Virus record (IMG/VR): IMGVR_UViG_3300036790_000159
Span: 1-41,161 of that record
Strand: one strand, 5' to 3'
DNA length: 41,161 bases
Source of the DNA: a virus
Below the pieces are notes generated by a model. It worked only from the letters and a program-made list of their open reading frames with translations. It did not search any database and was not told the DNA's origin. The position numbers and the translations under genes are program-made. Position 1 is the first letter of the stretch. Every line of letters starts with the position of its first letter. This document shows, in pieces, positions 188 to 41,046 of the stretch.

Positions 188-212
188 TGGGCATCGCCCA
201 GCACCGAAAGGA
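188..212 (+). repeat. Duplicated 25-nt leader, copy 1
   Basis: A 25-nt block identical to 2723-2747. It contains the hairpin TGGGC-ATC-GCCCA and ends in the ribosome-binding sequence AAAGGA, 8 nt before the ATG at 221. Both copies sit directly before a start codon, so the block behaves as a transplanted 5' leader. Whether it regulates translation is inference. Confidence 0.8.
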
Positions 213-220
213 CACGTCGC

Positions 221-650
221 ATGGATAATCTATTCGCCTCATCCGCAGCATTCGAGACAGACATCCTCACCGAGAAGTACGTGCCCAGCATGGGGTTCAA
301 GCGGCATCTGGTGTTGATTGATGAGGCCGACCAACTCACCGCCGCCGCGCAACTCTACATGCTCTCAATCCTCGACAGCACACACAGCGCCGCCGCCCGA
401 TACACTCTTCATCCTCACGGCCAATAGCACCGAGAAATTACAAGACCGATTACTCTCACGGTGCATTCCCGTTCAATTTTCGTCGCACGGCCAGTCCACG
501 CAAACGACGGCGCTGCTAGAGCGCGTGTGGAATGCAGAAGCACCTAGCGATGCGCCCCGGCCTAATTTTGGAAGGATAGTAAAAGAAGCGTGCAATAACG
601 TTAGAAAGTCACTGATGCAGTTACAAACTGAATTGCTCTTAGCTGAATAA
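221..650 (+). pseudogene. Clamp-loader-like AAA+ ATPase fragment, truncated and frameshifted
   Basis: Two frames together make one recognisable clamp-loader small-subunit-like C-terminal half. Frame 1 (221-427) carries the Walker B LVLIDEAD. After about base 400 the similarity continues in the +1 frame with LFILTANSTEKLQDRLLSRC, which holds sensor 1 and the SRC arginine-finger motif. The Walker A/P-loop half is missing; the ATG follows the shared leader almost directly. The break lies in a GCC/CCC-rich stretch near 396-403 and looks like one extra base. Intact relatives load sliding clamps on DNA, but without a P-loop this cannot be a functional ATPase. I read it as a remnant. A sequencing error could explain the frameshift but not the missing N-terminus. 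Confidence 0.7.
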
Positions 651-893
651 AAAGAAGGAATCGCAGACATGCAATCACTCCCGAGAAAACGGAAGCCGAG
701 AACTGCCGCCCAACAGGAGCGCCACAAAGCGAACCTCAGAGACCGCACGGAGCGCGGCATCTGCCGCCAGTGTCGCAATCCACGTCATCTCCACTACACA
801 CTCTGCATAGATTGCCGAGATAAGGTCCAGGGCTATAAAAATCCTAATCCGCGTGACCTTGTTAGAGCGCGTGCTTGGCAGAGACAACATACG

Positions 894-901
894 CAAAAAA
901 A
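894..901. repeat. Target site duplication, left copy
   Basis: CAAAAAAA abuts the left end of the insertion sequence. The identical octamer at 2487-2494 abuts the right end. An 8-bp duplication is what IS1595-family elements make. Confidence 0.9.
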
Positions 902-923
902 GGGAATTATCCCTTTTACTCCC
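902..923. repeat. Terminal inverted repeat, left end of IS
   Basis: This 22-bp repeat, beginning GGGAATTATCCC, is an exact reverse complement of 2465-2486. It includes the stop codon (916-918) of the small downstream ORF. Confidence 0.95.
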
Positions 924-1053
924 TGATTATTTTGTTTTCAACGGCTTCCGCCTTTGGCTTCTTCTTACGCTCTCGCGGTGCTTTTGTCTTCACTTCGGGC
1001 CTGTAACGCAGCACTAAATCGACCATCTTCTCGAACGTTTTAGGTGTCTTCAT
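916..1053 (-). CDS. Small basic protein downstream of transposase
   Basis: 45 aa, rich in Lys, Arg and Glu in its second half (RERKKKPKAE). The ATG (1053-1051) overlaps the transposase TGA (1052-1050) as ATGA, which suggests translational coupling. Its stop lies inside the left inverted repeat, so it belongs to the IS. I do not recognise a family. It could be an accessory DNA-binding peptide or an open frame without function. Confidence 0.5.
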   Translation of the reverse strand: MKTPKTFEKMVDLVLRYRPEVKTKAPRERKKKPKAEAVENKIIRE

Positions 1054-1948
1054 TGAATCAGCCTCTCGTATGTCAAACGCTTTCCGTCCATCGCCTTGAT
1101 AAACAGGTCGAGACGGTCAAGGGTGTGCGTATCGACGTTGCCTTCATTGAGCCGGAAAGTGAACTCGTCAACGTAGCGGTGAAGGTGCTTGGAACTGACC
1201 TGGTGGTAAACGCCGTGAACGCCCCGCTTCATTACCGCCCAGACGCTCTCGATAGAGTTGGTGCCAGCCGCGCCGCGCACATACTCGCCCGCGCTGTGGT
1301 TGACGGCCTCATGGTCGAAGAAGATGGGAGGGATACCCGCGTAGGCCGTCGCCTCATCGGTGAACAGGCAAGAACCGACTTCGACATTATCCAATATCGC
1401 CGTCTGAATAGTCTCTTTACCCGTGTTTTTGACGGTCATAGCGATGGTGCGACCGCCGCGCTCACGCAGTCCAAGGACAGCCGTTTTACCGACCGACCCG
1501 CGACCGGCGCGGAGCTTCTTCACCTCATGCTTGTTCTTTTCCCGTCGATTTCAACCATGCCTTGCAACTTCTCCAACTCCCCGCCGCAAGCCTCGCGCAG
1601 CCGATGAAGCATAAACCACGAAGACTTTTGAGTGACGCCGATCTCCTTCGCCAGTTGCATCGAAGAGATGCCTTTGCGGGCGGTAAGCAGCAGGTACATC
1701 GCATACAGCCATTTGTGGAGCGGGATATGCGACCGCTCGAAAATCGTGCCTGTACGAATGGTGAAATCGAGCTGGCATTTGTTGCAGCGGTAGAACTCAC
1801 CCTTGCGTGTGGTGATGCGATCTTGACCGCCGCAGGTAGGACATGTGATGCCTTTAGGCCAGAGACGAGCTTCCAAGTACCGCCGTGCGGCCTCCGCGTC
1901 CGGGATGAGTTGAAACAGTTGGAAAGTGCTGATTGTGGACTTGCTCAT
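1050..1948 (-). pseudogene. IS1595/ISXO2-like transposase, frameshifted
   Basis: The upstream part (1948-1520) has the N-terminal zinc ribbon (CPTC...CNKC) and the helix-turn-helix-like region ending at VEID, the first catalytic Asp. The downstream part continues in the -1 frame (KNKHEVKKLRAGRG onwards) with the second acidic block TDEATAY and the terminal NSIESVW. Family members read EIDETYVGGK here; that E-T-Y-x-G-G-K stretch is absent at the junction (about 1530-1535). I read this as a deletion of roughly 19 nt that removes part of the active site and shifts the frame. The GGGAAAAG at the junction is in the wrong phase for a -1 slippery heptamer. Predicted inactive. Confidence 0.88.
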
Positions 1949-2032
1949 AGCTGCAATCCTTCGCCGGGTTACGTACCGGCCCCACCTACCACAGCGGACG
2001 CACCGCTTACCGTTGGAACGGCGCAGCGGAGC

Positions 2033-2371
2033 TTAGAGGCCGAGAAGGGCGGCCAGACGGCGGCGCGACTTGGCGTACATGCGAGTTTTTTCGCTGGCAA
2101 AAGCGGTGCCGAGAGCGCGGATGTTGATGGGCTTGGAAAGGTCATCGAACAACCGATTGAGCTGCTTTACGTGGATACCGTGGCAGAAGACATCCAAGTG
2201 GTTCCCGTGCAATGTAATAGCGTCTTCCGCGCCCACATAGCTGTAAATGTCGGCGCGGCCATCACGGAAGGTCTCACGGCTGACAAGGCGAAGGCCCGTA
2301 CCAATCAAGCTGCTGTGAATCGTGGGCGTGACGCCTTTAGGGCAGGTCTGATTCGTGTATGTGTATACCAT
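2033..2371 (-). CDS. IS passenger protein, unknown function
   Basis: 112 aa from ATG at 2371, chosen because GGAG lies 7 nt upstream. The same frame stays open further upstream to 2449, without a ribosome-binding site. It lies wholly inside the IS, upstream of and codirectional with the transposase, behind the promoter at 2408-2436. No motif I recognise; the C-terminus is basic (KSRRRLAALLGL). Some IS1595-group elements carry passenger genes, so a passenger or regulatory role is plausible but unproven. Confidence 0.6.
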   Translation of the reverse strand: MVYTYTNQTCPKGVTPTIHSSLIGTGLRLVSRETFRDGRADIYSYVGAEDAITLHGNHLDVFCHGIHVKQLNRLFDDLSKPINIRALGTAFASEKTRMYAKSRRRLAALLGL

Positions 2372-2407
2372 TTTACTTCTCCAATGACGCTGGTTGCGTC
2401 TAAAAAT

Positions 2408-2436
2408 AAGGTACTTGACTCCCGCACTAATGTCAA
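2408..2436 (-). promoter_or_regulatory. Promoter-like sequence inside IS right end
   Basis: On the minus strand: TTGACA (2436-2431), a 17-bp spacer and TACCTT (2413-2408). It points at the 112-aa passenger and transposase. Spacing and -35 are ideal, the -10 is weak. It begins 28 bp inside the right inverted repeat, as expected for an IS promoter. Confidence 0.5.
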
Positions 2437-2464
2437 GCCTTTTCTTCAACTATTTTTCAGCTAC

Positions 2465-2486
2465 GGGAGTAAAAGGGATAATTCCC
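2465..2486. repeat. Terminal inverted repeat, right end of IS
   Basis: Exact reverse complement of 902-923. It is followed at once by the right copy of the octamer duplication. Confidence 0.95.
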
Positions 2487-2494
2487 CAAAAAAA
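2487..2494. repeat. Target site duplication, right copy
   Basis: CAAAAAAA, identical to 894-901. Confidence 0.9.
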
Positions 2495-2700
2495 GCGCGC
2501 TTTACGGCAATGCCTGCGCATGTTGCGGCGAGGATAATCCGTTTTTTCTCACCATCGACCACAAACACAGCAATGGAAGCGCCGATCCGCGAGTACGGGG
2601 GAAAAGTGGATACCGCATCGCTGGACTCGGCTGGTATCTGAAAATAATCCGGCTCAACTTCCCCGACGATTTTCAAGTGCTGTGCTGGAACTGCAATCAA
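2494..2700 (+). pseudogene. 3' part of the zinc/HNH-type protein, beyond the IS
   Basis: In the frame beginning AGC at 2494 the sequence reads SALYGNACACCGEDN, then FFLTIDHKHSNG, then FPDDFQVLCWNCNQ. This is the CxCCGE...TIDH...N-G...FQVLCWNCN pattern of small phage HNH/zinc proteins. There is no start codon; it is the displaced second half of the gene begun at 669. The usual tail after CWNCN is missing: at 2701 the sequence changes to the region carrying the duplicated leader and the cyclase, with the frame open into it. The gene therefore lost its end at a module junction and its middle to the IS. Confidence 0.75.
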
Positions 2701-2722
2701 GAAATTCGCTTAACTAACCGCA

Positions 2723-2747
2723 TGGGCATCGCCCAGCACCGAAAGGA
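2723..2747 (+). repeat. Duplicated 25-nt leader, copy 2
   Basis: Identical to 188-212, including the TGGGC-ATC-GCCCA hairpin and the AAAGGA ribosome-binding site, here 7 nt before the cyclase ATG at 2755. Flanking sequence differs apart from a shared GCAATCA slightly upstream of each copy. It marks a likely recombination junction and may also act as a translational leader. Confidence 0.8.
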
Positions 2748-2754
2748 ATTTACC

Positions 2755-3384
2755 ATGACGAATCTACCCTCCACCCTCCCCGCCGCTCACGACATCATCC
2801 GCCAGCTCGAGGCCAAAAACGAACAGCTCGAAATGATCGCCCGTATCGACCCCATCACCAACATCTGCAACCGCCGCGCCTTTGAAGAAAGGCTGTCGGC
2901 GGCGTTCCTCTCGGCGCGGCGCAGCTCGTCGCCGCTGGCCGTCGTCGTCATCGACCTGGACAACTTCAAGCGGCGAAACGATACCCTTGGCCACATTGCC
3001 GGCGATCATTGTCTGGGCGCGTTCGCTGCCCGTCTCGGTTCTCTCACTCGTGCCGGCGACACCGTGGCGCGGATCGGCGGCGAAGAGTTCGCCATCCTCC
3101 TGCCCGATGCCAGCGAAGATGAGGCCGCCCAGCTCTGCCGCCGCATCGCGGAGAGTGTCCGCTATGGCTGCTGCGCTGGCGAACCTTTGACGTTCTCCGC
3201 TGGCGTGGCCATGCTGGACTCCACCATGCTCCACCCATCCACCATCGTCGATAACGCCGATCGCGCCATGTACCGGGCAAAGGAGTCCGGCAAGAACCGC
3301 GTGTGCGTCCACCAGTCAGCCGTCCGCCGCGCCGTCGATGGTGGTCTCTTCCAGCGCCTCACCCGTCACATCCAGTCCCTCTAA
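2755..3384 (+). CDS. Diguanylate cyclase (GGDEF domain)
   Basis: 209 aa, essentially a single GGDEF domain after a short N-terminal helix (residues 12-29). Visible motifs: IDPITNICNRRAF (31-43), the metal-binding VVIDLDNFKRRND (64-76), GHIAGD (79-84), active site GGEEF (108-112), an RxxD inhibitory site (R99-D102) five residues before it, FSAGVA, and ADRAMYRAKESGKNRV. All residues expected for making c-di-GMP from two GTP are present, and the I-site predicts product inhibition. There is no sensor, receiver or membrane domain, so activity would follow expression and feedback. The start is set by AAAGGA in the duplicated leader. Unusual on a phage-like element; it may push the host toward a sessile state or affect cyclic-dinucleotide defence (inference). 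Confidence 0.93.
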   Translation: MTNLPSTLPAAHDIIRQLEAKNEQLEMIARIDPITNICNRRAFEERLSAAFLSARRSSSPLAVVVIDLDNFKRRNDTLGHIAGDHCLGAFAARLGSLTRAGDTVARIGGEEFAILLPDASEDEAAQLCRRIAESVRYGCCAGEPLTFSAGVAMLDSTMLHPSTIVDNADRAMYRAKESGKNRVCVHQSAVRRAVDGGLFQRLTRHIQSL

Positions 3385-3423: not shown

Positions 3424-3607
3424 ATGGCAAACGAAATTGAAGAATTGAAACCTATCGGACGCAATCCGCGAAGCAAAGATGCATCTGGACATGGTGCTTG
3501 CGCCTTATGCCCTCGCCATCGGTCGACCAGTCGACTACCTCGATTATGGCCATGTACAGAGTGCGAGGCTCTTTCTGCAAAAACTATTGGAGGCGAACCG
3601 TGGCTAA
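3424..3607 (+). pseudogene. Small phage protein with an apparent +1 frameshift
   Basis: ATG 3424 has a good ribosome-binding site (AAAGGA). After MANEIEEL the zero frame becomes nonsense. Skipping one A in 3448-3450 gives a coherent 60-aa protein: NLSDAIREAKMHLDMV, then IGRPVDYLDYGHVQSA, then LFLQKLLEANRG. Its TAA (3605-3607) overlaps the GTG start of the next gene, as is typical for this genome. An internal ATG at 3479 could give a 42-aa product but has no clear ribosome-binding site. Either a natural indel or a one-base sequence error in GAAAC. Confidence 0.55.
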
Positions 3608-4031
3608 GTTCAAGGTCAAAGTAAAACTAATCGCCGCCGTCGACTACGAAGTCGAAGTGGAAACCGCAGACGAAGCAAGGGCCGAAAATGTCGCTTCCGG
3701 GGCATGGCGCGAGATGCTGCCTGAAGATTTTCAGGTAGAGAAGGGCTATATCACCAAGGTGGAGACTGAAGCCGAGCAGCTCACCGCGGACTGTCCGGGC
3801 TGCGGCATCGAGCACATCATTCAGCACGACGACTTGCCAATCTGCTATTGCAACCAATTCGGTCACAATCCGTACGCTGCAATGAGAAACCCTCCAACAC
3901 GCAACTACACAAGCCGCCCTCATCTCATCGTCAACGGCGTTTGCACACCTGAGCCGTGGTGGTGGGATGACAACGAATATTGCGCTGTCTGCGGTGCGAA
4001 GATGGAAGCGGAGGATAAAGCCAATGGCTGA
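3600..4031 (+). CDS. Zinc-ribbon phage protein of unknown function
   Basis: 143 aa from GTG 3600 with GGAGG 6 nt upstream; a longer frame open from 3498 lacks a ribosome-binding site. The N-terminus is a beta-rich segment (KFKVKVKLIAAVDYEVEVETADEA is split here as two blocks around residues 3-12 and 13-26) like those in small phage accessory proteins. The C-terminal two-thirds carries CPGC, CYC and CAVC cysteine sets that could hold one or two zinc ions. It heads a run of four overlapping plus-strand genes. Not recognised further. Confidence 0.75.
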   Translation: MAKFKVKVKLIAAVDYEVEVETADEARAENVASGAWREMLPEDFQVEKGYITKVETEAEQLTADCPGCGIEHIIQHDDLPICYCNQFGHNPYAAMRNPPTRNYTSRPHLIVNGVCTPEPWWWDDNEYCAVCGAKMEAEDKANG

Positions 4032-4236
4032 CATCGATGCTTCTCTCGAATCGTTGAAGCAACCCGAATACCTCGGCGATGGCCTCTATGTGTCGTGGGA
4101 CGGCTGGCAGATACGCCTCTACGCTCACAACGGCGTCGAAGCTACAAACGAAGTCTTTCTCGAACCTGAGGTCCTGGTCGCGTTCCTTCGATACACCCAA
4201 AACCTGAAACGAAAGGTCGACGATGCCATCCCCTGA
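4024..4236 (+). CDS. Small phage protein, unknown
   Basis: 70 aa. ATG 4024 lies inside the end of the previous gene (8-nt overlap) with GGAGG 10 nt upstream, so the two are probably coupled. Acidic, with a YVSWDGWQIRLY segment resembling small early phage proteins. No enzymatic motif. Confidence 0.7.
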   Translation: MADIDASLESLKQPEYLGDGLYVSWDGWQIRLYAHNGVEATNEVFLEPEVLVAFLRYTQNLKRKVDDAIP

Positions 4237-4537
4237 TTTCACACTCGCCCAGGCTGACGATCTGGCGAAATACTTTCTCGGCAAAGACTGGTTCGGCGTC
4301 CAGCTCCGGGGCCAGGTCATGCTCTCCAGTAACGGGCACGGCGTCGGCATCGGCAATAGCTGGCGCGAGGCATTTCGCAGCGTCCACGTCAATCTCCCGC
4401 TGCGTCCGCAGTACGTGGCCAAGAGTTGCAGCGTGATGATGGGCGAAAAGGCCGTCTGCACGGCTGTCAGCGAAACGATGGCCAAGCGGATCGCCGCCGC
4501 GCTCAACAATCACATCCCAGATAGGAGGGGTATTTAA
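4223..4537 (+). CDS. Small phage protein, unknown
   Basis: 104 aa, overlapping the preceding gene by 14 nt. Mixed alpha/beta composition with no cysteine cluster or nucleotide-binding motif. The context (four small coupled genes) suggests an early or accessory phage function. Function unknown. Confidence 0.7.
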   Translation: MPSPDFTLAQADDLAKYFLGKDWFGVQLRGQVMLSSNGHGVGIGNSWREAFRSVHVNLPLRPQYVAKSCSVMMGEKAVCTAVSETMAKRIAAALNNHIPDRRGI

Positions 4538-4861
4538 ATGAATAACTCGCCGCACATCACTCCCGAAGAGTGGGAACGGATTCGCAAATATATTGCGGAT
4601 GGTCCCGATCATGTCCGCCTCGAAACGGATGAAAACGGAACAGCAGTCGTCTTTAGCGGGGAAGTCTCGGGCATGATGCACCCGCGCGCCTATCTTCAAA
4701 TCATGGAAGACGACTATCAGGATTTGGACCTAACGCCGGTCGACATCCTCAAGCACGTCAGCAACGCGACAGCTCCCGACGCGCTTATAGGCAATATGCC
4801 AGGCTCTCTGCGCGGCGCGAATCTGTTGCCGTACAAGCCTAAACCGCCCGAAACCGAATAG
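4538..4861 (+). CDS. Small acidic phage protein, unknown
   Basis: 107 aa with a strong AGGAGG ribosome-binding site 10-15 nt before the ATG. Acidic; starts with an ITPEEWERIRKYI helix and ends in a Pro/Lys tail. Last gene of the plus-strand run; a hairpin follows and the convergent minus-strand operon ends at 4893. Confidence 0.75.
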   Translation: MNNSPHITPEEWERIRKYIADGPDHVRLETDENGTAVVFSGEVSGMMHPRAYLQIMEDDYQDLDLTPVDILKHVSNATAPDALIGNMPGSLRGANLLPYKPKPPETE

Positions 4862-8374: not shown

Positions 8375-8676
8375 CTCCCAACTCCCTCGTCCGGTGGTAG
8401 CTCTGGCTCCGTGGGGTTGCCGTGGAGCGCCCACTCTCCGTTTCTCATATCGATAAACCAGATGCGTCCCTGTTGGTCGACGCCATACAAGGTTCGATCG
8501 GTGAAGCAAAGGTTAGACATCCGCACGATCAATCCGGCTTCGCCGTCTTCCATGACGCGCTCGACCTTCTCTGCCAATTTTCGAAGGCGTCGAGCAATGA
8601 TTTCGCAAACGTCTCCATTGCCTACCGCAAAACTAGAAAGCTGGTATATCTCGTCGATAATTTCATCGCGCTGCAT
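8371..8676 (-). CDS. Phage protein, unknown
   Basis: 101 aa from ATG 8676 with GGAGG 6 nt upstream; a TTG at 8682 is the alternative. Helical N-terminus, then a beta segment LYGVDQQGRIWFIDM that looks like a single propeller-type strand pair. Overlaps the SMC-like gene by 14 nt. Confidence 0.65.
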   Translation of the reverse strand: MQRDEIIDEIYQLSSFAVGNGDVCEIIARRLRKLAEKVERVMEDGEAGLIVRMSNLCFTDRTLYGVDQQGRIWFIDMRNGEWALHGNPTEPELPPDEGVGR

Positions 8677-10090
8677 TTTCAACCTCCACGTCGTCGCCCG
8701 AGGCCTCGCCGTCTTCCATAATCACGCTTACCTTCCCATCCGTCTCCACGCGCTCCATCAGCACCTGGAAATTATTCGCCTCGGCCAGCTCGTCGATCAG
8801 CTTCAGGCTGTCGGCATCCAACAGGCTGCCGTCGCGGATGCAGAGCAGCCGCACTTTAGGATTGGCGGCCATGCCCAGCGCCATGCTCACGCGAATCTGC
8901 TCGGCATTCGACGCCTGATTCAGCGGCAAACCGTTGTAGACCACTTCACCATGCCCGATGGAAAGCTTCTCAATCGGCATCTGGGCGCGCGCGATCGCGG
9001 CAGCGCGCTCGAGGTCGCGCTCCTTCATGCGCTTGTCGATCGCCGTCCAGTTCTCGTCCTCGGCGTCGAGATCCTTTTCGAGCTGGCGATAGTTCGCCGC
9101 CCGCTGGATGGCCGCGTTGGTCTCGTTCGCCCTGGTCAGCTCGGCGGCGACGGCGGCGGTGTCGATCTCGTCGCCCACCACGATCGCCTCTGCCTGCTTC
9201 AGAAGCTGCTGCCAGAGTCCATTTTTATGGGCTTTCGCGTTGACGGTGTAGGTTCGCGATTTTCCGTCCATGCCTTCGGCCTGTGAAATCATCTCGCGGA
9301 TCTGTTCGTCGATTTTTGCTGCGCTCTCCAGAGCGGCAACCTGCCGCCTCAACAGACTTTCTTGCTCCACGCGGCGCGCAGCGACCCCGCTGTTGTGCGT
9401 AGCCGCATTTCGCAGCTTCTCGGTAATCGCGGCCACGTCGATCGCGTCTACCGGCAAATCCGCCGCAGGAACAGCCATCGCAGCTAACCGGCTCTTCAAC
9501 GCATCCACCGCTCGCCCGGCCTCCCGCCGCAGGTCGTAGTCGGCCTTCTGCAGCGCGTCCAGCGCATCGATGTCAATGTCGAACTTGACCAGGCCGCGCA
9601 GCTCCTCGAGCTGCTCGTCGTCGCCCATGCGTGTAAACGCCATCGGATCGAATCCGAACTTGCCCAGCAGCTTGTCCAGTAGAACCTGGGGGCTGGGGAA
9701 GGCCTCGCCGCGCTTGCCGGTGACCAGCAGCTTCGACAGATAGGTATTGTCCTTCGTGCTCTTCTCTTCGTCGACCACGGTAAACTGCCGCGTGATGAGG
9801 AAGTCGCCGATGTCGACCTTGACGCTTCCGGTGCGCTGTCCCTTGCGGATGGGGTAGCGCGGGATCATCGACGTTCCCGTCAGCGCCCACGCCACGGCGT
9901 CGAGCACAGAGCTCTTGCCCTGGCCGTTCTTGCCGGCGATGACGATGGTGTTGCCCTTGGGCTTGATGTGCGCGAATCGCACGCGCTTGATGTTCTCGAT
10001 GCGCATCTCGAGGATGTGCATGTTGTCGCTGCTCGACTCCACAATCGCGTCTACGATCGCGTGCCGCTCTTCCTTCGGAATCCGTGCCAT
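8663..10090 (-). CDS. SMC/RecF-like AAA ATPase
   Basis: 475 aa. Walker A GKNGQGKSS lies at about residues 53-61, followed by the head-domain pattern DAVAWALTG. A central Ala/Glu-rich coiled-coil region spans roughly residues 170-370. The C-terminal head has NQASNAEQIRVSMALGM at the signature position and LLCIRDGSLLDADSL at the Walker B/D-loop position. This is the RecN/SMC/Rad50-type fold shrunk as in many phages, probably acting in phage recombination or DNA end processing. AAGGAG precedes the ATG. It heads the early operon behind the palindromic region at 10101-10157. Confidence 0.85.
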   Translation of the reverse strand: MARIPKEERHAIVDAIVESSSDNMHILEMRIENIKRVRFAHIKPKGNTIVIAGKNGQGKSSVLDAVAWALTGTSMIPRYPIRKGQRTGSVKVDIGDFLITRQFTVVDEEKSTKDNTYLSKLLVTGKRGEAFPSPQVLLDKLLGKFGFDPMAFTRMGDDEQLEELRGLVKFDIDIDALDALQKADYDLRREAGRAVDALKSRLAAMAVPAADLPVDAIDVAAITEKLRNAATHNSGVAARRVEQESLLRRQVAALESAAKIDEQIREMISQAEGMDGKSRTYTVNAKAHKNGLWQQLLKQAEAIVVGDEIDTAAVAAELTRANETNAAIQRAANYRQLEKDLDAEDENWTAIDKRMKERDLERAAAIARAQMPIEKLSIGHGEVVYNGLPLNQASNAEQIRVSMALGMAANPKVRLLCIRDGSLLDADSLKLIDELAEANNFQVLMERVETDGKVSVIMEDGEASGDDVEVENAAR

Positions 10091-28187: not shown

Positions 28188-29450
28188 TTAACTCGTCATC
28201 GGAACGGCTTCCGCGATCCGCATACGGCTGGTCACGTCGGGCGGTGGCCCGATGCCCAGAACGCAGTTGTATCCGGTCCCGGCCTGGATGAGCTGGTTGG
28301 CGTCATAGGCAGTTCGCGCTGTGAACTTCTCAGCCCACAGATCGAGGTTCTGCCATTTGTGGCCGGGCTTGGTCAGTTTGCCGTGAGGGAACTGAATGAA
28401 GATCATGCCGTCCATACCCGCGAGATAGGTACTGATCGCGGTTTCGCCAGAACTCAGATAGTTCGCGGTCTGGGTCTGGTTGGTGCTCTTTCTCCAGTGG
28501 CAGCCAAACAACTCCAGCGTACGTACCGGAGCTTCGCCGTCGTCGCCGTCCAGCGGCTCCAGCTTCAACTGGCCCGCGTCGGTGTGCTTCCAGATGTCGA
28601 CGATGGAGTTATTGGAGTCGTCGAGCATCAGGTCCGAGACGAAGAAAGGATGAATGCTTCCGTTGTAGAAGCCATCCTTCATCTGCGGGACTTCGGCACC
28701 TTCGAGCGAACCCGGCATCTGCTCGATGATGTTCTTGGTGAACGCATAGGGGCTGGTGGTCGCGTCCTGGTTGGCCGTCCGCGTGTCCATCGTGCGCAGA
28801 TAGTCCATCTGGTACATGATGAGGTCGTCGATCGTCAGCGCGAGCTGGTAGGCCATGATGCGCCTGTTCTCGACCAGATCGTCCGAGATCGAGGTCAACG
28901 CCGCGAAGTCGGAGATGGTGTTGAAGTTCGCCCATTGCCCGACGACGATATCCTTGAAATTGACGTTGATGACTTCGGGCGGCCCAGGTGTGCCCTCGGT
29001 CTGCGGGGTGATGTCCGGTCCCAGCGGAATCGACATGAAGTTGCGCCAGGTCTGACCGCTCTTCTCGGGCAGGTCCATGTGGCTGCACATCAGCAGCTTG
29101 TTCGTCTTGGCGTACAGCCACTGCATGAAGACGCGGTTGTAATACACCGTCAGACGCGCCTGCGGCATGTTGGCAGAGGTCTGAGCGGCCTGCGTTGCTC
29201 CACCCTCGCCGTAGGCTGGTGAATGCGCTGCCTGCGCTCCCATCGCCATCGCCGTGGCTCCGGTCGCCATCAGCGCCGCCGCACATGCGATCAGCAGCTG
29301 CAGCAATGGCCACAGAATGTACTTAAACAGAAATGCAGCGATACCGTCCTGAGTTCGGCTCTGCATCCCGATCGGGCGGAACTGCCTGCTTGTTCCGCTC
29401 ACCCATTGCTTCTTTCGCTTCCACATCCGGTACGTCATTGTCTGACGCAT
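28188..29450 (-). CDS. Major capsid protein, N4-gp56-like, with hydrophobic N-terminal extension
   Basis: 420 aa. From about residue 96 the sequence has the N4-gp56-type start (LTVYYNRVFMQWLYAKTNK, then TWRNFMSIPLG) and the later FNTISDFAALTSISDDLVEN block. The start at 29450 has a strong GGGGGAG ribosome-binding site. It gives about 80 extra residues: a basic stretch, a hydrophobic segment (FKYILWPLLQLLIACAAALM) and an Ala-rich AQA-like cleavage context. An internal ATG at residue 68 (MAMGAQAAHS) with GGAG upstream would give a normal-length coat protein. The virion role is strong; the extension needs explaining. Confidence 0.85.
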   Translation of the reverse strand: MRQTMTYRMWKRKKQWVSGTSRQFRPIGMQSRTQDGIAAFLFKYILWPLLQLLIACAAALMATGATAMAMGAQAAHSPAYGEGGATQAAQTSANMPQARLTVYYNRVFMQWLYAKTNKLLMCSHMDLPEKSGQTWRNFMSIPLGPDITPQTEGTPGPPEVINVNFKDIVVGQWANFNTISDFAALTSISDDLVENRRIMAYQLALTIDDLIMYQMDYLRTMDTRTANQDATTSPYAFTKNIIEQMPGSLEGAEVPQMKDGFYNGSIHPFFVSDLMLDDSNNSIVDIWKHTDAGQLKLEPLDGDDGEAPVRTLELFGCHWRKSTNQTQTANYLSSGETAISTYLAGMDGMIFIQFPHGKLTKPGHKWQNLDLWAEKFTARTAYDANQLIQAGTGYNCVLGIGPPPDVTSRMRIAEAVPMTS

Positions 29451-30944: not shown

Positions 30945-33158
30945 TTACACTCCAGTCTGCAGCTCGTTTATGTCAGTGTTGCGCTCCAGCCGGCCCTCGG
31001 CCTCCTCGAACTCCTGCGGACCCTCCAGCCGTTCGGCTGCCTTGTCTGCGGCGGCCTTCACCACCGCCAGCTGGGTATCGGCGGTTCCCTTGGCGTCGAT
31101 GGCCTGCAGCTTGTTCTTCCCGCGCAGCTGCTCGATCGCCGCCGCGCTCTGCGTCCTCTGCGCTGCCGGGTTCGTCGCCTGCACCTGTTGCAGCTGCTGG
31201 GGCGTGAGGTCGACGATGATGTCCTCGGCTCCCTGCAGCTCGCTCACGCGCATAAAGATCTTCTCGATCGCGGCGAAGTTGATCGTCTGTCCCTTCTGGT
31301 GCATAAACTCCATCAGTTGCGGCTGCTGCAGCAGCTGCAGCATGAACGGGATCAGTTGCTGGATGGAGGCCTTCGCCTGCAGCTTCTGACCCGCGAGAAT
31401 CTTGATGTTGAACTCCGCGCAGATCAGTCTCTCGGGGTCGATCTTGTTGATGATCGTGTCCGCATATTTTTTGCTCAGGATGCGGCGGATCTCGGCGATC
31501 GGCATCTTGGTCTGAATGATCCACCACAGAAATCGATACCAGCGCGTCAGTATGCCCTCGATGTGCGAGATAGGCTCGGCCACATTGTCGTCGGCCTTGT
31601 TTCCCAGGCGGTTGACGCCCGTTGCCGTCTTCAGCGCGGTCGAACCGGGGCCGGTGTTGCCCTGCATCGTGGTTGAGTTTGCGCCCACCAGGTCCTCGCC
31701 GCCGCGATTTGCAATGTCGCTGTAGATCTGCATATTTGCGGGATGAATCTCTGGCCGTTGGATGTACTGAAAGGCCTTTCCTACATCGCCGCTTGGACCG
31801 GGGTTGACTCCCCATAAAGTTCCCAATCCCATCACCACATTTTGCGTTGGCTCGTTCCCGCTTCCGTTGTCATACAGCAGCGGAGGGTCGCCCCAATATC
31901 CCAAAAGCTGCAGCATTTTATTTAAAATTCCCTGAGACATGCGCTGGTCTCCGGAATTGAGCCTGCCGATGCCCATCCCATAGCCGCTGTTGTCGATGTT
32001 CCACCAATTGCCGGCGACGCCCAGAGCGAAGTCCTGCAGATCATGGTCTCCGTTGCGAATCGTCTTACGTCGGCCCTGATAGCAAAGCACCTCGATGATC
32101 TTCTCTTTGGTTGAATACTTCAGCCGCATGAGAGGCCGCAGGGTCGGGTCGGCGTTGGTCTGCTCGTGTTCGCCCTGCGCGTGGAAGACGACCGCAGAAT
32201 TAGACTCCATGCTTTCGGAGGTTGTCGATGCTGCCGGTGCGTCGCCCAGCGGGTTCTCAAAAAAGAATTGCTTTAGCTCGTCGTCGCTGGGGATGTCCTT
32301 ATAGCAATCCATTCCGCGAAGCTGCTGCAGGTTCTGCAGGTTCGGGTAGTCGATATCTATCTTTCCAAATGCGCTCAACTCCGGGCGGTTGGGTGTGCGC
32401 CAGGCTGGGTCATAGAGCGTCGTTCCCAGCTTGCGATATTCGAAGTATGGCCACGTCTCTTTCACCGTGTCGATGACGACTTCAAACTGGTCGCTTTCCC
32501 AGGTGTTGACGACCTTGGGCGGTCCGATCGGCATCGGAATCTCTTCCGGCTGCTTTTTTCGTTTCCTCGTCTTGTAGACGGTCTCCTTCTCTTCATACCC
32601 CATATCGCCCAGCCCCGTCCCCTGCAGGACGAGACAGTCGATCAGCAGCCCCATGTTGTATTCAAGATCTGCGCGTTCGCTGAGGACGCTGAAGAGTTCG
32701 GTGATGGCGTCGGTGTAAATCTCCGAGTCGTCATCGCCTGCGAGCTGGCCGCGAGGCTCTAACAGAAACGGTGTCTGGTCGGCGAAGATGCCGCGCTTGA
32801 TCTGCGTCGCCATCGTGTTCGAGTTCTTGGCTACGTTGAACCGCGAAATGCGCTGTGTCCCTCCACTGCCTCCGCGCCAATTGCTATCGAAGTTGGGGCT
32901 TTGCTTCAGGTAGTCGATCAGCTGCCACTCGGCCAGCCATGCATTCTCGTCCAGCCATGCCACCCACGCCTGATAGTTCTCGTAAACCAGCGTCGCCGCC
33001 GCATCGTCGTCATAGCTGGTCTCTGCGCCGTCTTTGCCGAGCTTGGCCTGTGACTGCGCGATGCGCGGCGTCATCTCGTTGCCGAGTGGCATCCCATCGC
33101 CGCCAGGTCGCGCCGCTACATCGTCACCCTCACGCTCGATATCCAGTTCTTCAGCCAT
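30945..33158 (-). CDS. Portal protein
   Basis: 737 aa. Order and content fit a podovirus portal: N-terminal acidic region, helices around WLDENAWLAEWQLIDYLKQSPNFDSNW, SRFNVAKNSNTMATQIKRG, the wing domain, a stem/tunnel-like helix region near ILTRWYRFLWWIIQTK, and a Gln-rich C-terminal coiled coil (QQLIPFMLQLLQQPQLMEF). It follows the terminase and a small zinc gene. Forms the dodecameric DNA channel at the capsid vertex in this family. Confidence 0.85.
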   Translation of the reverse strand: MAEELDIEREGDDVAARPGGDGMPLGNEMTPRIAQSQAKLGKDGAETSYDDDAAATLVYENYQAWVAWLDENAWLAEWQLIDYLKQSPNFDSNWRGGSGGTQRISRFNVAKNSNTMATQIKRGIFADQTPFLLEPRGQLAGDDDSEIYTDAITELFSVLSERADLEYNMGLLIDCLVLQGTGLGDMGYEEKETVYKTRKRKKQPEEIPMPIGPPKVVNTWESDQFEVVIDTVKETWPYFEYRKLGTTLYDPAWRTPNRPELSAFGKIDIDYPNLQNLQQLRGMDCYKDIPSDDELKQFFFENPLGDAPAASTTSESMESNSAVVFHAQGEHEQTNADPTLRPLMRLKYSTKEKIIEVLCYQGRRKTIRNGDHDLQDFALGVAGNWWNIDNSGYGMGIGRLNSGDQRMSQGILNKMLQLLGYWGDPPLLYDNGSGNEPTQNVVMGLGTLWGVNPGPSGDVGKAFQYIQRPEIHPANMQIYSDIANRGGEDLVGANSTTMQGNTGPGSTALKTATGVNRLGNKADDNVAEPISHIEGILTRWYRFLWWIIQTKMPIAEIRRILSKKYADTIINKIDPERLICAEFNIKILAGQKLQAKASIQQLIPFMLQLLQQPQLMEFMHQKGQTINFAAIEKIFMRVSELQGAEDIIVDLTPQQLQQVQATNPAAQRTQSAAAIEQLRGKNKLQAIDAKGTADTQLAVVKAAADKAAERLEGPQEFEEAEGRLERNTDINELQTGV

Positions 33159-33360
33159 TTTCTCTCTCTTCGTTGAGCTGCTGGATCACATCCTGAAGCT
33201 GGCCAACTCTTTCATCTTCCGACATCAAAAACCACCACTTACAAACAGGCTTCGTTTCTTCGGGATCGTCTCTATCGCCAAAGTGCGCTTTCGCCTGCTC
33301 GCGATCGGTAGTAACAAAATCGCAGTGATAGCACCGCCAGTAGTCCACTAGCTCAACCAT
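33151..33360 (-). CDS. Small zinc-finger protein
   Basis: 69 aa from ATG 33360. WRCYHCDFVTTDREQAKAHF is a single C2H2-like finger (CxxC...H), followed by a helical tail LQDVIQQLNEE. 8-nt overlaps with both the terminase and portal genes. May be an assembly or DNA-binding factor. Confidence 0.7.
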   Translation of the reverse strand: MVELVDYWRCYHCDFVTTDREQAKAHFGDRDDPEETKPVCKWWFLMSEDERVGQLQDVIQQLNEERENG

Positions 33361-35050
33361 CGAGGCCACCAGGCAGTGGGAGCAACCAGTTGTGTGTCGT
33401 CGTCTTCTCCATCGCCTGCTGGTGTGCCATTGCTTTCTTTTTCACCTTCTCGTCGACGATTGGAGTGCCCTGCAGGTTCAAAAGCCAGTTGATCGTAGCA
33501 TCGTCGCCGCGCATCCGCTGATACTCAATCTCTTCATCCTCGAGCGCAGCGCGCATCTGAGACATTGGCACCAGGTTCCCCAGCTTCGACACGCACTCGA
33601 TGATGCCATTCTCCTCGATCAGACCGAAGTAGACGAACTGTTTTTTGCATTCGCTGCCTTTGGTCATGCCGCGCGCGAAGATAATCCGTCCAACCTTCAA
33701 CAATGGTTCCATCTGCTTGATTGCGCTGTTGCGCAGATTTTCGTTGTCTTCAAAGTCGCTCCACTGGATACGTAGGCTGACGTTCTTTCTTGCCGCCTCG
33801 TTGCGGATGTGGGGCGTAAAGGCATCGCATCCGGGGGTATTCAGGATCATCATTCCATCGGCCTGCAGCTGCCGGTGGATCTTCACCATACGCTCGGCCT
33901 GGTGGCTGGGCGTCCCGCCGATCTGCCAGCAGTCGATCACGTACACCTTGCCATCGATGATCCGCGCCGCCGCGCCCTCCATCAGCTTGCTCGTCGCCGG
34001 CTTCGAGCCATACTGCAGACGCCAGCACACAAACGTCTCGCCACCATAGGGTGGGATGCGCTCGATGTCGGCCTCGCACGTTCCATACAGCTTCTCGTCG
34101 AAGATGGGCGTGTGGCCACCCTGCGGATCGTTCTGCTGCTGGCACATGAACGTCTCGTAGTTCTCGTAGAACATCCCGCGCAGCCGTTTGTACGTCATGC
34201 CTGGGAGTTCGGAGAACGGCAAAATCACTTCATCCTCGGGCGGGAACTCTCCGAGTAGAAGTCGCGAGCTATCCTTGCGAATAATCGAGTGTCGAATCAG
34301 AACGTCCCACTCGTCGGGGTCCATATCGTTGAGTCGGACGCCATAGAGGTCGAAAGGGTGATATCGGGTACCAACGAGATACAGGTAGCCACCCGGAACG
34401 AGAGTGTTTTTGTTCGTGTCGAAAGTGTCGATTACACCTTGTCGGGCGTCTGCGGTGGCGCGGATACCGCTGTTCTTGGTCGCCACCATGTCGTCGCAGT
34501 TGAGCAGCCACGGATGCCATCCTGACTGTTCTGTGAGGGGCGAAGTAAACGAAATCGTGTCATCGAGCGCGTTGCGATCATGGGTCGCCGTGTTCCACGT
34601 TTCCTTAGCTGTAAATGGTTCTTTGTCTGTGACTAGCTCGGGAAAGCAAAGCTGAAACCGGGTTGGATTCTCAAACCTCGGACAATAGAAATAATTCGCG
34701 GTGCCTTTCGAGATTTTCTTCGCGAGAGGTTGGGTCGCCGTCTGATTCAATATGGTGATGAATTTTGGGAACCCCGCAATCCACTGCACCTTATCCACGC
34801 GGTTCCATGTGGTCTTGTAGGTAAAGCGCGGATCGAAGTGCATCAGCTTTTTTTTCGGGCGCTGCTCCTCGATGGGTAAGAGAGGATTTTTCCTGCCATA
34901 GAGATCCGCGACTGGCTTATGCAGGACGGGATGGAACTCCCAGCCCAGCATCCGGCCTGCAAAGAATGGATCGGTAATGAAGCGATGCCGCAAATCTGCG
35001 CGATAAGCGGCATCCTGAACAATGCGTTCGTGATCGTCTGGCTCGATCAT
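33353..35050 (-). CDS. terL: Terminase large subunit
   Basis: 565 aa from ATG 35050; the frame continues to 35131 but that part overlaps the preceding gene. FDPRFTYKTTW is the variant Walker A (R-x-x-Y-K-T-T) of Terminase_6-type packaging ATPases, LLNCDDMV the Walker B. The nuclease half has the conserved ARIIDGKVYVIDCW and later acidic clusters. The full-length frame is intact. It packages DNA into the prohead through the portal encoded downstream. No small-subunit gene is evident nearby; the 102-aa protein upstream is too unlike. Confidence 0.88.
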   Translation of the reverse strand: MIEPDDHERIVQDAAYRADLRHRFITDPFFAGRMLGWEFHPVLHKPVADLYGRKNPLLPIEEQRPKKKLMHFDPRFTYKTTWNRVDKVQWIAGFPKFITILNQTATQPLAKKISKGTANYFYCPRFENPTRFQLCFPELVTDKEPFTAKETWNTATHDRNALDDTISFTSPLTEQSGWHPWLLNCDDMVATKNSGIRATADARQGVIDTFDTNKNTLVPGGYLYLVGTRYHPFDLYGVRLNDMDPDEWDVLIRHSIIRKDSSRLLLGEFPPEDEVILPFSELPGMTYKRLRGMFYENYETFMCQQQNDPQGGHTPIFDEKLYGTCEADIERIPPYGGETFVCWRLQYGSKPATSKLMEGAAARIIDGKVYVIDCWQIGGTPSHQAERMVKIHRQLQADGMMILNTPGCDAFTPHIRNEAARKNVSLRIQWSDFEDNENLRNSAIKQMEPLLKVGRIIFARGMTKGSECKKQFVYFGLIEENGIIECVSKLGNLVPMSQMRAALEDEEIEYQRMRGDDATINWLLNLQGTPIVDEKVKKKAMAHQQAMEKTTTHNWLLPLPGGLDG

Positions 35051-35054
35051 TCGA

Positions 35055-35363
35055 CTACATCCCCGCTGAGGGAGCCGCTGCTGCATCGGGCGCTGCGCCG
35101 CCAGCGCCTGGCTCCCCATCGGGTGCAGCACCCGCGTCAGCAGCGGGCTGATTCATCGAGAATTGATCGCCGACGTGTTCTCCGGCCTCATCCGGGGATG
35201 AACTGACCGCCATATTTTTGCGCTCCGGCTCGGTCTTATCGTCACCCTTTTTGGCCTTGTAGGTGTGGTGATGGATGATGTGGCCGTCTTCGGTCTCTTC
35301 GCTGCGGATCTCATGCAGATGTTTCTTCTTGGGCTTCTCTTCGCCTTTTTTCTCTTCGGCCAT
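35055..35363 (-). CDS. Small His-rich late protein
   Basis: 102 aa with an AGGAGAG ribosome-binding site. Lys/Glu-rich N-terminus, then the conserved-looking HLHEIRSEETEDGHIIHHHT and an Ala/Gly/Pro-rich tail. Similar short proteins with a clustered HHH occur next to packaging genes in other phages. May bind metal or DNA; role unknown. Confidence 0.65.
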   Translation of the reverse strand: MAEEKKGEEKPKKKHLHEIRSEETEDGHIIHHHTYKAKKGDDKTEPERKNMAVSSSPDEAGEHVGDQFSMNQPAADAGAAPDGEPGAGGAAPDAAAAPSAGM

Positions 35364-39369: not shown

Positions 39370-39511
39370 ACCGAAGCTGTTTTGCCTCGCGTTCTTCGCG
39401 GGCGGAGCGCAGCTCAGTCCGAATATCTTGAAGCGTCCGCAATAGGTCACTTGCAAACAGGATGACGATGAAGCATCCCAATCCTTTCAGTACATCGCTT
39501 ATGATCGCCAT
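39368..39511 (-). CDS. Small single-helix membrane protein coupled to repA
   Basis: 47 aa. The ATG overlaps the repA stop as TGATG. Hydrophobic GLGCFIVILFASDLL (about residues 10-24) followed by a charged helix (TLQDIRTELRSAREEREAKQ). It is too short to be a conventional holin and is tied to replication genes, so a membrane-anchored replication or maintenance factor is one possibility. Unknown family. Confidence 0.55.
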   Translation of the reverse strand: MAIISDVLKGLGCFIVILFASDLLRTLQDIRTELRSAREEREAKQLR

Positions 39512-40521
39512 CAGCCAAGGTCCATCTTCTCAGCGCGTGGCGCGATAGCGGGTTTACTGACGTGGATCTCGATGCCGCCGCCCTGCTTGGGGTAACCAAA
39601 CTTGAGTCCTGGGTGTGCGAGCTTCACTTTCCGCATCGCTTTTTGAATATTTTTCTTAAGGTCTTTGGTGGTGGTGTAGTCACATCCGAGCTGTTGGCCT
39701 AGCATTCTCCACGTAAGCAAATGTTTGTACTTTTTACGCTGCTTGAGATTCGCGCCGATGTAGTTGCAGAGCATGTACAGGTCCAGCGCCAGCGGTGATT
39801 TTCGCAACATCGCTACAGCTCGCATATCGCACGGAACAACGCTCTCCATGATGGCGGCGAAGAAGTCGCGACTAAGGTCGATGTAGCTTCCCCACAGTAC
39901 TGGTTTCCCCGGCTCTCTGTCGTTCCAGCGCAGATGAATTTCGGATGTCACTGGATACGATTGGCTGCTTTCGGTGAGGATGGGTTTTCCGTCGATTACC
40001 TCGTGTGTGTGTTGGTAAAAGACGATGTGAGCTGCGAAGAGGCGGCGTGCCTGGTCTTTCATTCGCGTGGCGTCTCCGCGCACTCCACGACTTGATGTTT
40101 CTAGGTCCAGCTTTTCGACAAATTCGGTTAAGCAGTGCCCTAGATGAAGCCTGCGGATTCCGGTGCGTTTGGCTTCTGTCACAGCCCAAATAAGGATCAG
40201 GCGCGGCATGATGCCGTAGGGATAGCCCATTGACCGATTATTGAGATCGTCCCAGCCAGGCTGTATCCGAAGTGTGTACTTGCCATTTCGCCGTTTCCAT
40301 ACCGGCGCATCGCCGGGGTTGGTGTGCGGCAGTGTGCATTGGATGAGGAAACGCGCTAGGTATGCGGGATCGCCCAGCGGGTCTTCTTTGATCGCTGCGG
40401 CCTTCTCGACGAGTTTTAACGCCGCTTTTGATGCTTGTTTGGCGGCTGCTGAGGATTCGATTCGTTCGCGGAGGCCCATTGTTTCGGCTACATCTGGCAG
40501 TGAGGCGGGGAGGTCGTTCAT
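39511..40521 (-). CDS. repA: RepA-type plasmid replication initiator
   Basis: 336 aa. The central block YGIMPRLILIWAVTEAKRTG, then LHLGHCLTEFVEKL, then RMKDQARRLFAAHI is the signature of the plasmid RepA/RPA initiator family. The C-terminal half has winged-helix-like segments (RSPLALDLYMLCNYIG-like; RMLGQQLGCDYTTTKDLKKN). It would bind the iterons lying upstream at 40638-41006 to start replication. The start follows a long leader with a weak GAGA ribosome-binding site and the operator-like block at 40573-40597. Confidence 0.85.
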   Translation of the reverse strand: MNDLPASLPDVAETMGLRERIESSAAAKQASKAALKLVEKAAAIKEDPLGDPAYLARFLIQCTLPHTNPGDAPVWKRRNGKYTLRIQPGWDDLNNRSMGYPYGIMPRLILIWAVTEAKRTGIRRLHLGHCLTEFVEKLDLETSSRGVRGDATRMKDQARRLFAAHIVFYQHTHEVIDGKPILTESSQSYPVTSEIHLRWNDREPGKPVLWGSYIDLSRDFFAAIMESVVPCDMRAVAMLRKSPLALDLYMLCNYIGANLKQRKKYKHLLTWRMLGQQLGCDYTTTKDLKKNIQKAMRKVKLAHPGLKFGYPKQGGGIEIHVSKPAIAPRAEKMDLG

Positions 40522-40637: not shown

Positions 40638-41046
40638 CCGCTGAAACGGTACCCCCTCCCGCGATGATCTCCCTTACCCTAGCGGTCATTCGCACAATTT
40701 TGCATGTTTGTGGTTTCGCTTTTCTTACCCCTATTCATCCTATGAAAATAGTTTTGCACCGGGCCGTGTGGATCGCGAAAGTTTTCCTCGGTGAAACGCT
40801 CCCCCCTCATGAAAGCGAATAGAAAGAGAATTATTTTCTACCGGTGAAACGCTCCCCCCTTCCACTATAAAACCCTGTATTGGTGCGTCTATTCATCTGT
40901 TTTTTCTGTGTTATATTTTCGCTTTTCTATCCCCTTGGATGTTATTTTCTCAGTGTTTTGTCCCCGGTGAAACGCTCCCCCCTAATACCGGTGAAACGCT
41001 CCCCCCAAGTACCATGTAGTTATGGCATGTAGTTAAACCATGTAGT
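40638..41046. other. Iteron replication origin
   Basis: Four exact copies of an 18-bp iteron beginning CGGTGAAACGCT and ending in six C lie at 40789, 40842, 40965 and 40989. A degenerate copy is at 40638-40659. An AT-rich stretch (about 40861-40960) separates the second and third copies and could be the unwinding element. Three CATGTAGT-headed 13-mers follow at 41013, 41026 and 41039 in exact 13-bp register. This fills the only gene-free stretch over 300 bp (40522-41161); no ORF here looks real. Confidence 0.85.

Follow-up and report, generated by a model that had tools for sequence, protein, structure and literature searches.

GGDEF proteins without a sensory part are known from phages. Pseudomonas phage YuA encodes a sensor-less, GGDEF-only protein (review PMC10333796), and SP15_150 of Bacillus phage SP-15, whose gene of 552 nt is taken up mostly by the GGDEF domain, is also short and sensor-less. 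Cyclases are found on other mobile elements as well. Experiments with DgcK and DgcL of the SXT/R391 ICEs and with Dgc137 of a Vibrio island demonstrated that these cyclases alter biofilm and motility (PMC10672970), while 6 to 10% of plasmids carry c-di-GMP turnover genes, including those for GGDEF proteins (PMC10333796), and a Mu-like marine virus encodes a cyclase (PMC7785012). Among cellular enzymes, DgcB of Caulobacter (PDB 6ttr) has a similar architecture, a coiled coil plus GGDEF.

Here, we analyzed a stretch of viral DNA of 41,161 nucleotides (hereafter the window), a metagenomic contig with linear ends from IMG/VR (IMGVR_UViG_3300036790_000159) that belongs to a family of soil phages of approximately 40 kb. 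The sensor-less GGDEF protein that it encodes is only ~34% identical to the SP-15 protein, and the locus differs from those of YuA and SP-15 by a carrier from a RepA phage-plasmid family, by a leader shared with other genes and by a measured purifying selection. Like the cyclases of ICEs, islands, plasmids and the Mu-like virus, it would be expected to alter biofilm formation and motility of the recipient, although its host phylum and type of element are different. Sensor-less phage GGDEF proteins and plasmid cyclases are thus already known and the window provides a clean new example, to which it adds direct evidence of selection and an unusual leader. On balance, we favor the reading that the gene encodes a working, sensor-less, early, constitutive and feedback-limited cyclase of Acidobacteriaceae phage-plasmids, which would raise the c-di-GMP level of the host.

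Sequence and predicted structure of the cyclase

The cyclase gene has 209 codons with zero internal stops, and its ATG is preceded, at seven bases, by a GAAAGGA ribosome site. The product matches the full Pfam GGDEF domain (PF00990, profile positions 2-161 of 161) with an E-value of 1.8e-42 and 145.3 bits, the curated cut-off of this family being 23.8 bits. This score, together with the selection described below, ruled out a chance ORF. All motifs are complete (DLDNFKRRND...GHIAGD, RAGD, GGEEF, AKESGKNR), and the catalytic and GTP-binding set comprises GGEEF, Asp67, Glu110, Asn75, Asp84 and Lys176. By analogy with PleD, we take Asp67 and Glu110 to be metal ligands and Asn75 and Asp84 to contact the guanine, and Lys176 was assigned in the same way. 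The RxxD inhibitory site, which is common among GGDEF cyclases but not universal, is represented by RAGD at residues 99-102. Every signature residue is invariant across the four complete phage copies, which are 61-98% identical, and the RxxD site is present in all four.

The AlphaFold2 model (mean pLDDT of 82, from an input alignment of only four sequences) starts with a long helix at residues 8-28 that leads into the GGDEF fold, and ends with two C-terminal helices of low confidence. Using this model, Foldseek retrieved solved diguanylate cyclases, including WspR and DgcB (TM 0.78/0.85, 28% sequence identity), and a sequence search of the PDB returned GGDEF enzymes at 1e-28 to 1e-16. Neither the Pfam scan nor the predicted model revealed a sensory domain, the N-terminal helix being the only element besides GGDEF. 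The initial annotation, which had described intact GGEEF, metal-binding and RxxD residues and no sensory domain, therefore agrees with the motifs, their invariance in four phages and the model.

With GGEEF, both metal ligands and the putative guanine-binding Asn75 and Asp84 all intact, we consider it very unlikely that the protein is something other than a c-di-GMP synthase in vivo, such as a binder of c-di-GMP or GTP or a Hypr-type maker of another cyclic dinucleotide, even though many GGDEF domains are degenerate receptors and the cyclase activity is itself a prediction from the sequence. Hypr enzymes presumably carry Ser instead of Asp at the guanine-selecting position, which we take to be Asp84 in the window cyclase. 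This residue is Asp and not Ser in all four phages, which ruled out a Hypr-type (cGAMP synthase) product.

The carrier, its host and the distribution of the cyclase

The features identified in the window are listed in Table 1. The block of phage genes on the minus strand is supported by profile matches as well as by collinear relatives. A RusA protein is also encoded, and no integrase was found among the window proteins scanned. RepA homologues were present in eight relatives. Considering its packaging and structural genes, its RepA_C initiator and its iterons, the carrier is probably a phage-plasmid with plasmid replication, a more precise description than the phage-like element originally proposed. 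A word search of open-access literature, judged by title and abstract, yielded no paper on phage-plasmids of Acidobacteria. The window also encodes a Rad50/SbcC-like AAA ATPase (8663-10090) with no visible nuclease partner.

Table 1. Coordinates of the features in the window.
Feature	Position	Strand	Evidence or remark
Leader before the clamp-loader gene, 25 nt	188..212	+	Perfect repeat of 2723-2747
AAA+ sliding-clamp-loader gene remnant	221..650	+	Intact in G001 and others
HNH endonuclease gene, 5' part, probably interrupted by the IS	669..901	+	TSD position, likeness to the G001 HNH gene
IS1595-family (ISXO2-like) element	902..2486	-	22-nt terminal inverted repeats, TSD
Frameshifted IS1595 transposase, two pieces	1050..1948	-	Zn ribbon 1520-1948, DDE domain 1050-1523
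HNH endonuclease gene, putative 3' part, directly upstream of the cyclase leader	2487..2721	+	Translation resembles the G001 HNH protein
Cyclase leader: 5-bp hairpin TGGGC-ATC-GCCCA, then GCACCGAAAGGA ribosome-binding site	2723..2747	+	
Stand-alone GGDEF diguanylate cyclase gene (predicted), 209 aa	2755..3384	+	Pfam GGDEF, phage homologues, AlphaFold2/Foldseek
Small left-arm genes following the cyclase, function unknown	3424..4861	+	Partly conserved in the family
Major head protein	28188-29450	-	PHROGs 4.2e-8
Portal/head-tail adaptor	30945-33158	-	PHROGs 3e-10
Large terminase	33353-35131	-	PHROGs 9.1e-19
RepA-type plasmid replication initiator	39511..40521	-	Pfam RepA_C 4.4e-17
Iterons CGGTGAAACGCTCCCCCC	40639..41006	+	Four perfect 18-nt copies and one degenerate

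Searches with the cyclase and the portal protein provided nine relatives that show full or partial collinearity with the window, and the leader pattern recovered two further contigs, bringing the set to eleven. The host is probably a member of the Acidobacteriaceae, as suggested by three affinities: the IS1595 transposase is closest to Acidobacteriaceae genomes, a portal relative with 48% identity is located in an Acidobacteriaceae genome, and the closest plasmid RepA proteins include that of Granulicella tundricola (40-41%). In two relatives, G003 and G014, the structural proteins are only 30-35% identical to those of the window and yet its left-arm genes are shared at 60-78%, suggesting that the early region and the structural genes move separately.

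The cyclase is carried by the window, G001, G002 and G003, and by G005, in which the contig end cuts the gene. It is absent from G006, G007, G008 and G014, and G009 retains only a fragment, still reading RIGGEAFAIILPNTSE. Its presence is therefore patchy on the phage tree, and the gene is dispensable within the family, since several close relatives either lack it or have it only in decayed form. When the phage copies were placed in a tree together with 34 GGDEF domains from Acidobacteriaceae, they formed one clade with a support of 97/99 and a long stem. The best bacterial GGDEF matches in 250 Acidobacteriaceae genomes were 41-47% identical, which ruled out a recent pick-up from the host, and a pattern scan of bacterial genomes found nothing closely related to the cyclase. 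Phage and plasmid collections contained many GGDEF matches, all of them below 60% identity. The closest bacterial GGDEF domains found belong to Acidobacteriaceae cyclases of 482 aa (L083-L092, for example), labeled GAF/PAS-GGDEF from inspection of their sequences, with 42-47% identity over the domain and the preceding helix. Since GGDEF is the C-terminal part of these proteins, the phage protein, which forms a separate clade, resembles such a domain without its N-terminal sensory part of ~300 residues.

Broken neighbors and selection on the cyclase

Several genes next to the cyclase are broken. Aligned with intact copies from relatives (Pfam AAA 1.1e-13, DNA_pol3_delta2 2e-9), the clamp-loader remnant shows an internal deletion of ~220 nt and a 4-nt insertion. 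The IS1595 element, which has perfect terminal inverted repeats and is flanked by an 8-bp duplication (CAAAAAAA, at 894-901 and 2487-2494), appears to sit inside an HNH endonuclease gene. Its transposase, recognized by Pfam as a Zn ribbon (1.9e-9) and a DDE domain (3e-34), is not only frameshifted but has lost the stretch around the first catalytic residue. A second ORF inside the element (2033-2449, 138 aa) had no match in 22 related transposase loci, nor in Pfam. Part of the damage to these genes could in principle be a metagenome assembly error.

The cyclase gene itself is under purifying selection in the most recent comparison available. Between the window and G001, we counted 20 synonymous and 6 nonsynonymous changes, for a dN/dS of 0.093 (p 5e-8, three quarters of the changes being expected to be nonsynonymous), and similar values were obtained for the terminase (0.09) and the portal (0.11). 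The values were less strict with the more distant G002 and G003 (0.23 and 0.46), comparisons in which many synonymous sites have already changed more than once. The initial annotation had taken the contrast between an intact cyclase and broken neighbors to suggest selection; the clamp loader, the HNH gene with its IS and the transposase bear out the contrast, and the dN/dS of 0.09 with G001 and the signature residues invariant in four phages bear out the selection.

The shared leader and the proposed function

The cyclase is preceded by a leader of 25 nt, of the general form TGGGC-NNN-GCCCAGCACCGAAAGGA, which occurs twice in the window (0 expected from shuffles). An alignment of 23 copies from the phages examined showed that 22 of them directly precede an ORF start, and the genes behind them encode the clamp loader, an ArdC-like antirestriction protein, the cyclase and small proteins, some of membrane-like sequence. 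We observed the leader in the window and in G001-G003, G006-G009, G014 and G015. In IMG/VR, the strict pattern matched exactly only in contigs of this phage family, and relaxing it brought in G003 and a single short contig (G015), whereas 12 related bacterial genomes contained no copy with up to 2 mismatches allowed. Rfam gave no meaningful match for the leader. Copies differ in the three loop bases, and in the cyclase leader of G003 the closing pair becomes U-A; 96.8% of pairs are kept, with only one double change, and the 81-nt fold was no better than shuffles (z -0.8). These data are suggestive of an RNA hairpin, the double changes being too few for proof. A promoter scan before the cyclase gave no more matches than chance and none that was convincing. 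As the IS also lies between the cyclase and the upstream operon, its expression in the window genome is uncertain.

The leader also coincides with a boundary. The window and G001 are ~47% alike just before the leader, 95% over a block that opens with the first base of the leader and closes shortly after the cyclase gene, and less than 60% thereafter, which indicates that the cyclase was exchanged as a unit of leader plus gene. Across the phage family, the leader may be both a regulatory element and a recombination boundary, and such leader-bounded exchange illustrates legibly how cassettes are shuffled in the early regions of phages. The limits of this block, the patchy presence of the gene on the phage tree and the HNH genes that adjoin the cyclase in both the window and G001 could also be accounted for by a passenger gene, a mobile GGDEF cassette passed among these phages when copies of the leader recombine, perhaps aided by HNH, with little benefit to the phage. 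We find this explanation improbable, however, because the strong purifying selection on the recent branch and the catalytic residues kept invariant over 61-98% identity argue for a protein that has been useful to its carrier over time. A broader scheme, in which the hairpin would be a phage-wide regulatory and recombination unit that marks exchangeable early cassettes (those for the clamp loader, ArdC, the cyclase and small membrane-like proteins), keeps their translation in step and allows phage-plasmids to trade genes for control of the host, with the cyclase as one cassette setting host c-di-GMP to stabilize the plasmid state, is put forward only as a long shot.

The ArdC-like protein (ArdcN 8.2e-34, MPTase-PolyVal 3.4e-37), composed of ArdcN and a zincin metallopeptidase, is encoded in the early region of G002 (1175-2059) and in the left arms of G006, G007 and G008. 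The cyclase has its leader and its left-arm position in common with ArdC and the clamp loader, which suggests that the three are co-expressed early, and c-di-GMP made early could, in step with ArdC, disturb an immune or surface-receptor pathway of the host and not its lifestyle. Yet no ArdC gene was found in the left arm of the window, the timing of expression is itself inferred and a defense target is purely hypothetical, so that this role seems doubtful to us.

Under the favored reading of a constitutive cyclase acting on the host, the enzyme would form a homodimer through its N-terminal helix, which precedes the GGDEF domain in the monomer model. It would make c-di-GMP from GTP as soon as it is translated, with no input signal, either soon after entry or while the plasmid is being maintained. 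Product inhibition through the RxxD site would set a ceiling, in place of switching by an input signal. The raised c-di-GMP level would then render the host sessile, exopolysaccharide-producing and less motile, a state that may help the carried element to persist or keep superinfection in check. Provided that the enzyme is active, this would be a natural case of a phage-plasmid setting c-di-GMP in a host from a common, little-studied soil phylum. A small, soluble and sensor-less cyclase with a conserved active site and I-site is also well suited for testing whether the cyclases of mobile elements serve the element or the host. Rfam detected no c-di-GMP riboswitch in the window and no PilZ receptor was matched among the proteins scanned; as no receptor was found in the window, c-di-GMP more likely acts on the host than in a switch of the phage itself, such as the choice between lysis and maintenance that the initial annotation had raised along with host motility and biofilm. 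The genomes of the likely hosts each contain at least 13 GGDEF matches, suggesting that a c-di-GMP signal would have receivers there.
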